Shown piece by piece: positions 9,568-17,291 of a stretch of DNA of 32,818 bases. Position 1 is the stretch's first letter, and every line of letters begins with the position of its first letter. Location of the stretch: positions 1-32,818 of the forward strand of contig JAPPNE010000081.1 in NCBI GenBank assembly GCA_028818775.1. The letters run 5' to 3'. Source of the stretch: Deltaproteobacteria bacterium (GTDB lineage Bacteria; Desulfobacterota; Binatia; UBA9968; JAJDTQ01). Under the pieces are notes generated by a model that saw nothing but the letters and a program-made list of their open reading frames with translations, did not search any database and was not told the origin of the DNA. The translations under genes and the position numbers were made by a program.

Positions 9568-11393
9568 TCAGGGGTTCAGGACGACGCGGCTCAGCCGACG
9601 CCAACGACTGTCTTGGCGCAGACTGGGTTTTGCCTCCCCGATTGCCTCGACGACGAGATCCAGCTTGTAAGGTACTTGATCGGGATCGTCCGGAACCAGC
9701 TTGTCAATAAGGGCCAGCGTGGCATCCGGGAAACGCGTTGCCGGCGCGTCGTCCGCCGCCAAGTCTCCCTGGCCCAGGGGAATGGCAAACAGGCCGCCCT
9801 TACGGATCGGGATGAGATGTGGCGATATGGTACGAACCACCTCCGGGAACATGTCTCCAGCGTTTTCCACGAGATCCGCGAATCGACGCGATGTCTCTTC
9901 CGTCCGAAAGCGATCCTCCCGTGGACAAGCCTTTTCTACGAAAGGCTTGCCAAAGCGGCGCCACTTCTTCGGGTCGCCGTCGAGCACCGTGTGGTTAAGG
10001 AAGTCGATGCTGTGCGCACGCCCCGCGTCATTAGTTTCTTGAAGCGCACGACGAGCTTCGTCGTAAGAGACGTACGCCGAATTCTTCCGTCGCCAAAAAC
10101 ATGCCAGGACGAGAAACTCGTGAAGGCGGAGAAATGCCTCGTCCGACCAACCCCATCTCGACGCATGGGCGAACACGTTCAAGAAGTGCGGCTTCAGTAA
10201 TGAGAACAGAGAGGGGGGCTCGGACGGAACCGTGGAGTTGGCCGGACGAGCTGGGTCATCGTCAAGGCCATACTCCAGGAGAGGATCAAAGTCCGGTTGT
10301 GCACCGACGGGATCGCGACCAATGTCGCCGTACCGGACACGGTGGTCAAACACGCAAAGCCATTCGCCGGAGGGTGGCCGATCGGCATCCGCGAACAGCT
10401 TGGCACCAACGTCAGTTCTGACGAGTGACGCGACCTGACCACGTTCATGCGGGGAGAGTTTTCGCGGCCCCCTTCTTGCGAGATCCACGACCGTCCGGCG
10501 CCAAGCCAAGGGATCGTCTGCTCGATCCGCCCAAGCAGAAAGAGTGCTCCACAGTGCCGTATGGCTGTCCGTAGAGGGGTAGGCTAGAGCGCGGACTCCG
10601 CTGTCACGCCAGCGAGGCTGGACTTCTTCCTGGGCACCGCTGTCGAATGCAAAGAGTCTAACGGCACGACCTTGTCCGCCAGCGTGAAGGCCTTGAAGGA
10701 GGTATCTCACCGGTGGATCATTGGCGGAGTACCCAAGCAGTACGACGATATACTGGTCGAGCAGGGCGCTTACGAAACGGGTGGCCCAACCCTCCGCCAA
10801 GTACGCCCGCCCGAAGTCAGAACTGCTGACGACGAGATTTTGGCGACCCTCGCCGCGGTTGATCCTGTTGTCTATCCGTCCGTGGAGATAGACATGCCGT
10901 CGAATGACTGCATGCCGGTCAGATCCGGTAGCGCAGGCGCGACGTGGGTCTTCAATCTTTGTTGGCCGGCTTTTTCGAACAGGCGATCGAAGTTGGTAGT
11001 GACGATCTGAGGCTTGCCGTTGCTGCTCCGTGACAAGCGAAGGACCGTCTCATGAGTCGACAAATTCGCGCCGCGCGGCGTCTTGAGTCTCTTGGCGATC
11101 AGGTAATCAACCTCGCTCGCGGGGTATTCTTGCTGAAGCAAATTGAATATCTGATCGAGGGAGGGACGGGCTCCGACAGGGATCGTCTTGTCTTCCCACA
11201 TCGACAGCATCTTCCGCGACTGAGCGTTGGCGGATGCACCGAGTTGTTCGACGACGAACTTCGCCAAATCCCGAAAATCCGGCATTCCGGAAGGATAGGA
11301 GACCCCGGCGCCGCACAGGAAAACGACCTGCCCGTTGTCCCGTTCTTCGAGCAACTCGTCGGGGATGTTTGGTCCTTCCGGAAGGAAGCGCAT
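9568..11393 (-). pseudogene. SIR2-like (SIR2_2 + DUF4020-like) defence protein, frameshifted into two parts
   Basis: Two open frames form one protein. Part 1 (11393-10872) has the NAD-binding start FLCGAGVSYPSGMPDFRDL and TTNFDRLFEKA, then ends at a TAG at 10874. Part 2 (same strand, next frame) continues from about 10896 as HVYLHGRIDNRINRGEG, then VVSSSDFGRAYLAEGW and LLGYSANDPPVRYLLQGL. It runs to 9568 with a long C-terminal domain resembling DUF4020. The H-V-Y-L-H-G motif is standard in SIR2-like proteins just after the T-T-N-x-D block. The total span is 1826 bases, one short of a multiple of three, so one inserted base would restore about 608 residues. Family members deplete NAD+ in abortive defence. 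The start ATG at 11393 has no clear SD and lies 66 bases after the ImmA-like gene. GC is visibly lower than in the flanks. This could be real decay or a sequencing indel. Confidence 0.8.
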
Positions 11394-13198: not shown

Positions 13199-14134
13199 CT
13201 AAGCGTTCTTGGTAGTCTCGTTCCGGACGGTCTCGTTGAGGGAGCCGGTGCGGTAGCCCTGGAGGTCGATGCTGACGTAGGTGAAGCCGGCGTCCTTGAA
13301 GCGCCGGAGGATCTCCTCGCGCACGTCCGGACGCAGCAGCTTGTCGAATTCGTCCGGCGCCACCTCGATGCGCGCCAGCTCGTCGTGGTAGCGCACCCGG
13401 TGGACGCGGAAACCAAGTTCGCGGAGCACCCGCTCGCAGCGGTTCACCTGGGTGAGCTTCTCGGGGGTGATGGCGGTGCCGTAGGGGAATCGGCTGGAGA
13501 GGCACGCCAGGGCGGGCTTGTCCCAGACCCGGAGCCCCATGCGCCGGGCGGCCTCGCGGATGTCCGCCTTGGTGAAGCCCAACTCGTCCAGCGGCGAGCG
13601 CACGCCGCGCTCGCGCGCCGCTTTCCGGCCGGGACGGTGGTCGCCGCGGTCGTCCAGGTTGAAGCCGTCGAGCACATGCGGGATGCCCAACGCCGCGGCC
13701 TCGTCGATGGCCTTGCCGTAGAGTTCGGTCTTGCAGAAATAGCAGCGGTTGACGGGGTTGGCGGCGTAGCGCGGATCGTCCAGTTCGTAGGTGTCGATGA
13801 GCAGGTGCCGGGCGCCGATGCTCTCCGCCAGGCCGCGGGCGTCCGCTCCCTCCTCGGGCGCGAGGCTGGGAGAGACCGCGGTGAGCGCCAGGGCGTTGTC
13901 CCCCAGTACGTTCACCGCCTCGGCCAGCAGGTAGCCGGAGTCGACGCCGCCGGAGAAACAGACCACCACGTGGCCCATTTCCCGCAGCAGCGCCTGAAGC
14001 CCGGTTACCTTTTGCGCCAGTTCGGCGTCCTCGAAAGGGTGATGCCCTAGCTCCGCTCCGTGAGCCCCCCGCACCCCTCCGTCATTCCCGCGAAAGCGGG
14101 AATCCAGGAAGGGTGGTGTGAAGGAGCCCTTCAT
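13199..14134 (-). CDS. larE: LarE-type ATP-dependent sulfur transferase (PP-loop family)
   Basis: This protein has up to 311 residues. It carries the PP-loop VVVCFSGGVDSGYLLAEAV, the CYFCKTELYGKAIDEA block, DGFNLDDRGDHRPGRKAA and the KPALACLSSRFPYGTAIT segment. That order is the LarE/NCAIR-mutase-related PP-loop pattern. LarE adenylates a pyridine dicarboxylate carrier and donates sulfur to build the nickel-pincer cofactor of lactate racemase. The Cys in ACLSSR is at the conserved position used as sulfur donor or cluster ligand in the family. LarB and LarC are not in the window, so another sulfur-transfer job is possible. The N-terminus is uncertain: the ATG at 14134 lacks a good SD, and its first 20 residues translate a dispersed repeat (14080-14108). 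A GTG at 14074 or the ATG of the MGHVVVCF segment are alternatives. It follows the GST gene by 25 bases. Confidence 0.85.
   Translation of the reverse strand: MKGSFTPPFLDSRFRGNDGGVRGAHGAELGHHPFEDAELAQKVTGLQALLREMGHVVVCFSGGVDSGYLLAEAVNVLGDNALALTAVSPSLAPEEGADARGLAESIGARHLLIDTYELDDPRYAANPVNRCYFCKTELYGKAIDEAAALGIPHVLDGFNLDDRGDHRPGRKAARERGVRSPLDELGFTKADIREAARRMGLRVWDKPALACLSSRFPYGTAITPEKLTQVNRCERVLRELGFRVHRVRYHDELARIEVAPDEFDKLLRPDVREEILRRFKDAGFTYVSIDLQGYRTGSLNETVRNETTKNA
14080..14108 (-). repeat. dispersed 29-bp palindromic repeat, copy 1 (inside the larE 5' end)
   Basis: A perfect palindrome with arms ATTCCCGC and GCGGGAAT around a 4-base loop (14084-14103) is flanked by CCTGG and GACG. The whole 29-base unit recurs identically in the opposite orientation at 17263-17291. 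Read in frame with larE it encodes D-S-R-F-R-G-N-D, a peptide produced when this type of intergenic repeat is mis-annotated as coding. The core resembles the dRS3-like ATTCCC-N8-GGGAAT class of small repeats. Confidence 0.75.
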
Positions 14135-14159: not shown

Positions 14160-14723
14160 CTACGGCGTCGACTTCACCTTCGGCCGCTCCAGCAGCGAGT
14201 CGCGCCAACGCTTGACGTTGGGCAGGTCCTCGGTGATGGACGTCCGGTAGGAGTCCTCACGGGTGAAGAACGGGATGTAGGTGATGTCCGCCAGCGAGTA
14301 GTCGTCGACGATGTAGTCGCGGCCGGCCATGCGTTTCTCCAGCGTCTCCAGGTGCTCCCGCAGGCGCCTCTTGTTCTTCTCGACCTCGTGGTCGTGGCGG
14401 ATGTTGCCCGCCGCGGCCTGGAGCCGGGTGTTGCAGAAGTCGATCCAGATGCGCACCTCGGCGCGCTTCGTCAGGTCCTTGGGCATCAGCGGCACCTCGG
14501 GGAACTTCTCGTCCAGGTACTCGTTGATGACCGCCGATTCGTAGATCACCGCGTCTCCGTCCACCAGCACGGGGACCTTGCCGTAGGGGTTCAGCGTGAC
14601 CAGCTCTTTGGACTTGTTCTTGAGGTCGCACTCGACCAGGTCGTAGGGGATGTCTTTCTCTGCCAGGACAAGCCTTGTCCTGTGGGCGTACGGTCAAGGA
14701 CCGTAGGACAGTAGTCGCAACAT
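14160..14723 (-). CDS. glutathione S-transferase family protein, probable selenoprotein (UGA at codon 10)
   Basis: Read through one in-frame UGA (14696-14694), the gene encodes 187 residues. The N-terminus is MLRLLSYGP-U-PYAHRTRLVLAEKD, then a thioredoxin-fold G-site with NPYGKVPVLVDGDAVIYESA (cis-Pro and E-S motif, about residues 45-64). The helical C-terminal domain includes the YSLADITYIPFF helix. AAGGAGG stands 6 bases before the ATG at 14723, so the frame clearly starts upstream of the UGA. The UGA occupies the Cys of the C-P-[FY]-A-x-R motif of omega/beta-like and SspA-like GSTs, and a SECIS-like hairpin follows. Starting instead at the ATG at 14570 would remove the glutathione site. 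Family enzymes transfer or reduce thiols; a selenol would be a stronger nucleophile. The operon partners are a CDGSH protein, a cupin and LarE. The alternative is a nonsense mutation, less likely given the position and hairpin. Confidence 0.8.
14664..14696 (-). promoter_or_regulatory. UGA codon with putative bacterial SECIS element
   Basis: On the mRNA, UGA (14696-14694) is followed after 18 bases by the apical loop of a perfect 7-bp hairpin: CAGGACA, loop AGGCU, UGUCCUG (14682-14664). A further A-U pair could tighten the loop to GGC. The bacterial SECIS model, as I recall it, asks for 16-37 bases from UGA to the apical loop, a stem of at least 4 bp and a G among the first two loop bases. All three are met. 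E. coli fdhF has a similar GG-containing loop. Confidence 0.7.
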
Positions 14724-14803
14724 GTCTTCCTCCTTCGAAGCCGCGGCCCGCTCCAGTGCCGGCCGCCGTTCGGGCGGGCTCGAAACCTGCCCCCGTTCCA
14801 AAT

Positions 14804-15605: not shown

Positions 15606-16994
15606 TCACACCAGCAGGCCCATGACCGTACCGGCGTCGACGACATGGAGACGGTGCTCAGTGTCCTCGGGCATCCGCTCCGGAACGAACAGCGCCTGGT
15701 GCAGCTCGATATCCTCGGCTCCCGCAAGGTCGCCGAGGTGGACGGGTACGTCCGCGCCGGGGACCTTGACCGGCTGCGTCGTCCACTTGGCCTCGCCCAC
15801 CAGCAGTCGCTTGCCGTCCACCGAGCGTGCGACGATGTCGAGTTCCGGGGCGTTGCCGCGCCAGTATCGCAGCGCCGGCTCCCACGGACCCAGCCGGCCC
15901 AGGGTCGTATCGGAACGGTGAAGAAGGGGCACCGCGCTGCGGCACAGCTCCTCCCAGGCAAGAGCCTCAAGGCCGCGCCGGTGCCGCTGCCAGTACGCGA
16001 GCCGCGTCTCCGGGGGCGCGGCGGCCAGGGCCGCCCGATGCGGGGCGACTACCCGGAACCACAGGCGCAGAAAGGGATCGTCGATTCGGTAGAGGCTGCG
16101 TTTGCCGGACTTCGGGTCGGTTCCGAACGGCGTGTCGCGGCGTACGAGACCCATCTCCGCGAGTGAGGCGAGTGGCCGCGACAGACTGGAAGCCGGCTTG
16201 CCGAGACGGCCCGCGATCTCGCTGACCCGGTGCGCCCCGTTGCCGATGACGTCCAGCAAGGGGCGCAACGCCGTGGCCGGAGGGGTCTCCTCCCGCAACA
16301 GCCGATCAGGTTCTCCATGAAGCGGACCCGCGGGGTCGAGAACCAGAGCGTCCAACGCGGCTTCGATGTCGTTTCCGAACGGTTCGGCAAGCTCCCAGTA
16401 GCGAGGTATGCCTCCCCATAGCGCATAGACGGTCACCAGGTCGCGATGCCTGTCGAAGGGGAAAGCCTCGGCGAGATGCCCCGGCGGCAAGGGGCCGACC
16501 GCAAAGGCTTCGGCAGCCCGGCCGTAGAGCGGCGCCGTGGAGTCGAGTATCACGCTGTGCATCATGCGCTGACTCGATCCGCACACGGCCAGCCGCAACC
16601 GCCGCTCCGGGCGGTCCAGCCAGTTCTGCAAGACTCCGGGCAGCGCGGGGTCCGCCTCGATCAGATAGGGCAGCTCGTCGAGCACCCACGGCCCCTCCCA
16701 GCCGGCGCGGTCAGCCTCGGCCGAAACCCGCGTTAAAAACGAGCGCCAGTCCGGGTACTCGACGTCGGCAAACCCCGGGAATCGTTCAGCGACGGCCGTC
16801 GCCAAGTAGCGCCGCTGCACGGGCGAGGACGACTGATCCGCCACCGTATACAGGCCGTCGTGACCCTGCGACCACTCGATGAGCAATCGCGATTTCCCGA
16901 TCCGCCGGCGTCCCCAGATGACCGCGAAAGCGCCGGCCCGGGACAACACATGGTCCAGCCGCTCCATTTCGTGGCGACGGTCGAGGAACTGCAT
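15606..16994 (-). CDS. AAA ATPase with C-terminal DUF234/PD-(D/E)xK-like domain
   Basis: This 462-residue protein opens with FLDRRHEMERLDHVLSRAG and the Walker A motif VIWGRRRIGKSRLLIEW (about residues 25-41). Walker B is GPWVLDELPYLIEADP (about 100-115) and a sensor-like CGSSQRMM follows (about 139-146). A winged-helix segment reads HRVSEIAGRLGKPASSLSRPLASL, split as HRVSEIAGRLGK and PASSLSRPLASL (about 265-290). The C-terminal part has PELDIVARS then LLVGEAKWT, the D-x(n)-E-x-K nuclease-like signature of DUF234. These archaeal-type ATPases are widespread in bacteria and spread horizontally; their role is poorly known, with links to mobile elements and toxin-like loci. The ATG at 16994 has no SD, but an excellent -10 lies 7 bases upstream, which points to a leaderless transcript. 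It stands alone, with no partner gene. Confidence 0.85.
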   Translation of the reverse strand: MQFLDRRHEMERLDHVLSRAGAFAVIWGRRRIGKSRLLIEWSQGHDGLYTVADQSSSPVQRRYLATAVAERFPGFADVEYPDWRSFLTRVSAEADRAGWEGPWVLDELPYLIEADPALPGVLQNWLDRPERRLRLAVCGSSQRMMHSVILDSTAPLYGRAAEAFAVGPLPPGHLAEAFPFDRHRDLVTVYALWGGIPRYWELAEPFGNDIEAALDALVLDPAGPLHGEPDRLLREETPPATALRPLLDVIGNGAHRVSEIAGRLGKPASSLSRPLASLAEMGLVRRDTPFGTDPKSGKRSLYRIDDPFLRLWFRVVAPHRAALAAAPPETRLAYWQRHRRGLEALAWEELCRSAVPLLHRSDTTLGRLGPWEPALRYWRGNAPELDIVARSVDGKRLLVGEAKWTTQPVKVPGADVPVHLGDLAGAEDIELHQALFVPERMPEDTEHRLHVVDAGTVMGLLV

Positions 16995-17262: not shown

Positions 17263-17291
17263 CCTGGATTCCCGCTTTCGCGGGAATGACG
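17263..17291 (+). repeat. dispersed 29-bp palindromic repeat, copy 2
   Basis: Identical in all 29 bases to the unit at 14080-14108 but in inverse orientation. The palindrome arms are ATTCCCGC (17268-17275) and GCGGGAAT (17280-17287). An outer CCCCTG/CAGGGG pair could extend the hairpin. It lies upstream of the nuo promoter and downstream of no gene, so it is not acting as a terminator here. Confidence 0.75.

Follow-up and report, generated by a model that had tools for sequence, protein, structure and literature searches.

A probable selenocysteine-containing, glutathione S-transferase-like protein with a covarying SECIS hairpin in Candidatus Binatia

The window analysed here is a 32,818-nucleotide stretch of DNA (contig JAPPNE010000081.1, assembly GCA_028818775.1) from a bacterium of the class Binatia. 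Its minus strand carries, at 14160–14723, a gene for a protein of the glutathione S-transferase (GST) fold, designated Sec-GST, which comprises 187 codons and a TAG stop (codon 188, 14162–14160). The sequence AAGGAGGAAGAC, a strong Shine-Dalgarno signal, precedes the ATG at 14723, and the GGAGG region (14729–14735, minus strand), read directly, lies a few bases 5' of this start. The sole stop codon before the TAG is a TGA at codon 10 (14694–14696, minus strand), and read-through of this one UGA gives a complete product of 187 amino acids. An initial annotation of this DNA had described a GST gene running from 14723 to 14160 through a single UGA at codon 10, with both sides of the UGA in the same frame and the protein otherwise complete. 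Reading of the frame codon by codon bore this out, and GST homology was found on both sides of the UGA. It had also anticipated that standard ORF calling, which cuts Sec-GST at codon 9 or begins at 14570, would miss the beginning of the protein; indeed, an ordinary ORF caller gave only 14570–14160, a 136-residue ORF with a GTG start. The active-site motif of the window protein is GP-U-PYAHRTR, which contains a single reactive residue and lacks a second Cys.

Upstream of Sec-GST, on the same strand, are genes for a cupin domain protein (PF07883; 14804–15190) and a CDGSH iron-sulfur protein (PF09360; 15224–15472). A gene for a LarE-like ATP-dependent sacrificial sulfur transferase (TIGR00268, 325.7 bits over residues 42–300) is located downstream at 13199–14134, also on the minus strand. 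The order CDGSH-cupin-Sec-GST-LarE was kept in 7 of 9 genomes of the genus; of the exceptions, G001 retains the GST-LarE pair, and in G008 a contig end interrupts the region. In other genera, the flanks examined contained no match to any of the four neighbour proteins of the window. The CDGSH, cupin and LarE partners provide a hint of iron-sulfur or sulfur chemistry. Inverted copies of a 24-nucleotide palindromic repeat, GGATTCCCGCTTTCGCGGGAATGA, were observed at positions 14082–14105 and 17266–17289 of the window. Because the first of these copies falls at the beginning of the LarE ORF as listed, the first codons of this ORF are probably not coding, and the true LarE start is probably downstream of the listed ATG.

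We found that TGA occupied codon 10 in all 43 copies of an alignment that included 40 copies from 32 genomes of the window's order and three from another family (f6), as well as in 12 more copies of that family, which argues against a chance occurrence. Exactly one TGA was present in each site-spanning orthologue from 58 genomes around the window, and its codon position was identical in every orthologue whose gene was read. The aligned copies were 36–98% identical to the window protein, showed no stop beyond the UGA and were conserved on both sides of it. A class-wide search of 148 genomes identified 39 copies in the window's order (clade A; 40 when a partial copy in G014 is counted) and 15 in family f6 (clade B), each with a single TGA, together with at least four Sec-GST copies in family f11 (clade C), and the total in Binatia was approximately 59 copies in three clades. 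In a search of 395 genomes across the phylum, matches at E-values up to 1e-32 came from class Binatia only; by sequence, Sec-GST is placed firmly in Candidatus Binatia. Besides, a fragment in G008 (L101), which spans residues 71–165 only and leaves the site outside, has a TAG and is apparently a disrupted additional copy.

UGA is normally a stop codon, and two or three relatives have no visible Sec machinery, as might be expected if the codon were a nonsense mutation in a pseudogene or a misread base. However, the identical TGA in every site-covering copy from dozens of separately assembled genomes, the conservation on both sides with no other stops, and the covariation of the hairpin described below make this explanation hardly credible. 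The residue expected at the UGA also points to Sec. At this column, Cys is found in homologues that do not belong to the Sec clades, and Ser or Thr in more distant paralogues, in agreement with the suggestion that Sec occupies the catalytic position of Cys-type GSTs. Cys was present in 22 homologues on the tree and occurs in other GSTs of the class; a gammaproteobacterial homologue (L030) is also of the Cys type. A different reading of the UGA, for example as Trp by suppression, is at odds with this Cys column, with the presence of tRNA-Sec and SelB and with the conservation of the hairpin as RNA. Similarly, the 136-residue ORF that begins at GTG 14570 does exist, but a truncated protein made from it would lose the N-terminal region of GST_N, which is conserved in all copies. 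These two possibilities, even taken together, are very improbable.

A bacterial SECIS element had been suggested as a check on the UGA, and a hairpin of this type, CAGGACAA-GGC-UUGUCCUG, is present at 14664–14682 (minus strand), with 8 bp, a 3-nt loop starting with GG and a distance of 19 nt from the UGA to the loop. Published rules for bSECIS elements are an apical loop of 3–9 nt, a stem of 4–16 bp, a G in the first two loop positions, a distance of 16–37 nt from the UGA and a minimum free energy of at most −7.5 kcal/mol (PMC13188914). The window hairpin fits these rules (loop GGC, 7–8 bp, 19 nt, −11.6 kcal/mol), and, as described in the following, it covaries and lies in a region of low silent variation. 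No Rfam match was obtained across the window. Folding of the single sequence was considered as proof of a SECIS and set aside as too weak by itself: the stability of the lone hairpin was not unusual relative to shuffles (z −0.57), and a fraction of 0.47 of synonymous recodings folded as well as the window segment. Comparative tests were therefore used, and the case for the SECIS rests on the comparison of copies. Across copies, 97.8% of cells were paired versus 94.2% in shuffles (none of 500 shuffles as high), and when the helix was slid along the alignment only 27–49% of cells were paired. Three of the eight pairs change on both sides in a compensatory manner. With the 12 additional copies, 29 double-changed cells were found compared with 7.3 in shuffles; such counts are inflated by relatedness, yet the slid controls, which keep this relatedness, show none. 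Silent variation was lowest at codons 14–21, where the hairpin is located (normalized entropy 0.30 versus 0.73 for codons 27–180), and the codon for Arg17 was AGG in 43 of 43 copies. Moreover, Sec copies of the three clades folded better than their own synonymous recodings (mean z −1.7, −1.4 and −3.2), whereas Cys and Ser homologues did not (mean z −0.2 and −0.1, respectively).

The initial annotation had made its selenoprotein assignment depend on selA, selB, selC and selD, and SelA (582 bits), SelB (388 bits), SelD (372 bits) and tRNA-Sec (73.1 bits, cut-off 47, in agreement with ARAGORN) were all detected in the window's genome (4.1 Mb, 97.5% complete), with the three proteins also above curated cut-offs. 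The genes selD, selB and selA adjoin on contig C61 (C61:8657–13053). SelD itself (L111, C61:8657–9583) has an in-frame UGA at the usual Sec site (VKAAG-U-AAKLGP), followed by a hairpin, GGUGCAG-GUU-CUGCACC. It is thus likely a second selenoprotein, and this genome would have at least one more, independent Sec codon. Machinery was less complete in three other genomes. Two with an intact Sec-GST (G010 and G029) had no SelA, and neither SelB nor tRNA-Sec was above cut-off; in a third with Sec-GST (G020), tRNA-Sec was found, SelA was not, and SelB was not above cut-off. Since these are fragmented MAGs of 210–670 contigs and selA and selB are neighbours, the genes are likely to be on missing contigs, although these organisms may instead have lost the Sec trait. 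Considering the conserved UGA, the hairpin and the decoding genes, the window gene almost certainly codes for a genuine selenoprotein, with UGA codon 10 predicted to be read as selenocysteine.

Each of the three Sec clades was supported on the tree (99/95, 100/100 and 100/96), and Cys and Ser homologues surrounded these clades. A tree with one origin, in which all Sec rows were kept together, was 28 log-likelihood units worse (p-AU 0.04), and a single origin of the three clades was disfavoured, not firmly, on this basis. Constraining clades A and B together gave a p value of 0.06, and these two clades could represent one Sec gain. Long branches make the exact parentage of the Sec clades unsafe. 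The SECIS of clade C has a GGA loop located 32 nt from the UGA, 13 nt further downstream than the 19 nt observed in the window, and lies in other codons. This feature, together with the disfavoured one-origin tree, suggests that Sec was probably gained separately in clade C. In addition, four clade C sequences (L124, L133, L175 and L176) contain an extra hairpin (e.g., UAUGCGCG-CAAAA-CGCGCAUA) between the UGA and the GGA-loop hairpin. On the tree, clade C groups weakly with Ser-type GSTs; given that its SECIS is also elsewhere, Sec in this clade may replace Ser and not Cys. A fuller scenario, in which Sec was gained at least twice at the same GST position within one class, with clade C possibly derived from a Ser-type protein and a thiol other than glutathione possibly used, is proposed only tentatively. 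It would be a naturally occurring example of an active site that has probably gained Sec more than once.

The read-through protein matched Pfam domains GST_N_2, GST_N_3, GST_N, GST_C and GST_C_2, all above cut-offs, and its AlphaFold model had a pLDDT of 95.8 and a pTM of 0.90. It combines a thioredoxin-like GST_N domain with an all-helical GST_C domain, as characterizes the GST superfamily. By both sequence and fold, the closest solved structures were SspA and omega- and tau-class GSTs, with Z of about 25 to GSTs and SspA. Residues N45, P46, K49, V50, P51, E62 and S63 were invariant in the aligned copies and resemble the glutathione site of GSTs. With omega-class and related Cys-GSTs (GSTO1, DHAR and GSTL), the protein shares the fold, the [C/U]P[FY]A motif and a single reactive residue with no second Cys, but it has Sec in place of Cys, is shorter (187 residues), is bacterial and is known from sequence.

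The sequence data show the conserved UGA, a SECIS with covariation, the genes for Sec decoding, a GST fold and residues like those of the glutathione site; from these we infer Sec insertion in the cell, a catalytic cycle and the thiol used, as follows. SelB and tRNA-Sec would decode UGA codon 10, guided by the hairpin directly 3' of it, and the resulting enzyme would be a GST-fold protein with a single Sec, belonging to the Cys-GST (omega/SspA-like) type. Its selenolate, located where the first helix begins, would most likely attack either a peroxide or a mixed disulfide of glutathione. An Se-S-glutathione intermediate (selenenylsulfide) would then form, and Sec would be regenerated by another molecule of glutathione or by a different small thiol. 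The outcome would be glutaredoxin-like deglutathionylation and/or glutathione-peroxidase-like chemistry. Cys-GSTs are known to deglutathionylate substrates by one cysteine (PMC4138524), and a GST engineered with an active-site Sec, seleno-LuGST1-1, showed 50% of the glutathione peroxidase activity of the rabbit-liver enzyme (PMC12123629). The latter resembles the window protein in having an active-site Sec on a GST scaffold; it was, however, man-made by cysteine replacement, whereas the window protein is natural and its Sec insertion is predicted to be SECIS-directed. By analogy with these proteins, a putative glutathione-dependent redox activity (thiol-transferase and/or peroxidase) is the function that we somewhat favour.

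It is also conceivable that the protein is a selenoprotein but does not use glutathione, being an SspA-like regulator or an enzyme working with another thiol. SspA structures (6v91, 4qq7, 3mdk and 1yy7) were among the best PDB matches by sequence and fold, and SspA (NF007016) was the top NCBIfam match, although the window protein scored far under the cut-off (101.9 of 314 bits) and differs in having a Sec codon. Furthermore, a search of the window's genome with the TIGR01380 model only did not find this E. coli-type glutathione synthetase, which makes glutathione use uncertain. On the other hand, 4qq7, a putative SspA from Burkholderia cenocepacia, was solved with bound glutathione, the glutathione-site-like Pro and Glu-Ser are invariant, and a redox-active Sec suggests catalysis over regulation. 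A role apart from glutathione is thus rather unlikely, and glutathione-dependent redox activity remains the preferred function. The whole genome contained about 15 GST-like matches yet no match to TIGR01380.

GST-like selenoproteins as such are already known. Four predicted sequences were described from the Sargasso Sea in 2005 (PMC1088965) and 12 from GOS in 2008 (PMC2398784), which agrees with the statement in the initial annotation that such proteins had been proposed from marine metagenomes. Its remark that they are poorly described experimentally also holds, as the family was still listed as uncharacterised in 2026 (PMC13188914). This family (COG0625/PF13409; representatives PPR62222.1 and MEK9676863.1) and the proteins described here have in common a Sec where homologues have Cys, a bacterial SECIS and knowledge from sequence alone. 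Compared by family name and size only, the Sargasso Sea and GOS sequences are few (4 and 12) and marine, whereas approximately 59 copies were found here in one class. Our search of the literature for a link between Binatota and selenoproteins found none. What is new is the placement in Binatia, the three Sec clades, the SECIS covariation, the likely repeated origin and the genus gene order CDGSH-cupin-GST-LarE. For about 20 years, this predicted family was represented by only a few marine reads; there is now a large, well-bounded set of full-length genes with genomic context and a covariation-backed SECIS. With this set, it becomes practical to express the protein, label it with selenium and compare Sec directly with Cys.

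Two further loci were observed on the minus strand of the window. At 9568–11393, consecutive portions of the SIR2 anti-phage protein Dsr1 are matched by two ORFs in different frames, with the middle of the profile unmatched; this locus is probably a defence gene that has been disrupted or shortened. At 15606–16994, an ATPase_2/DUF234 protein matches the candidate defence family PDC-S27.
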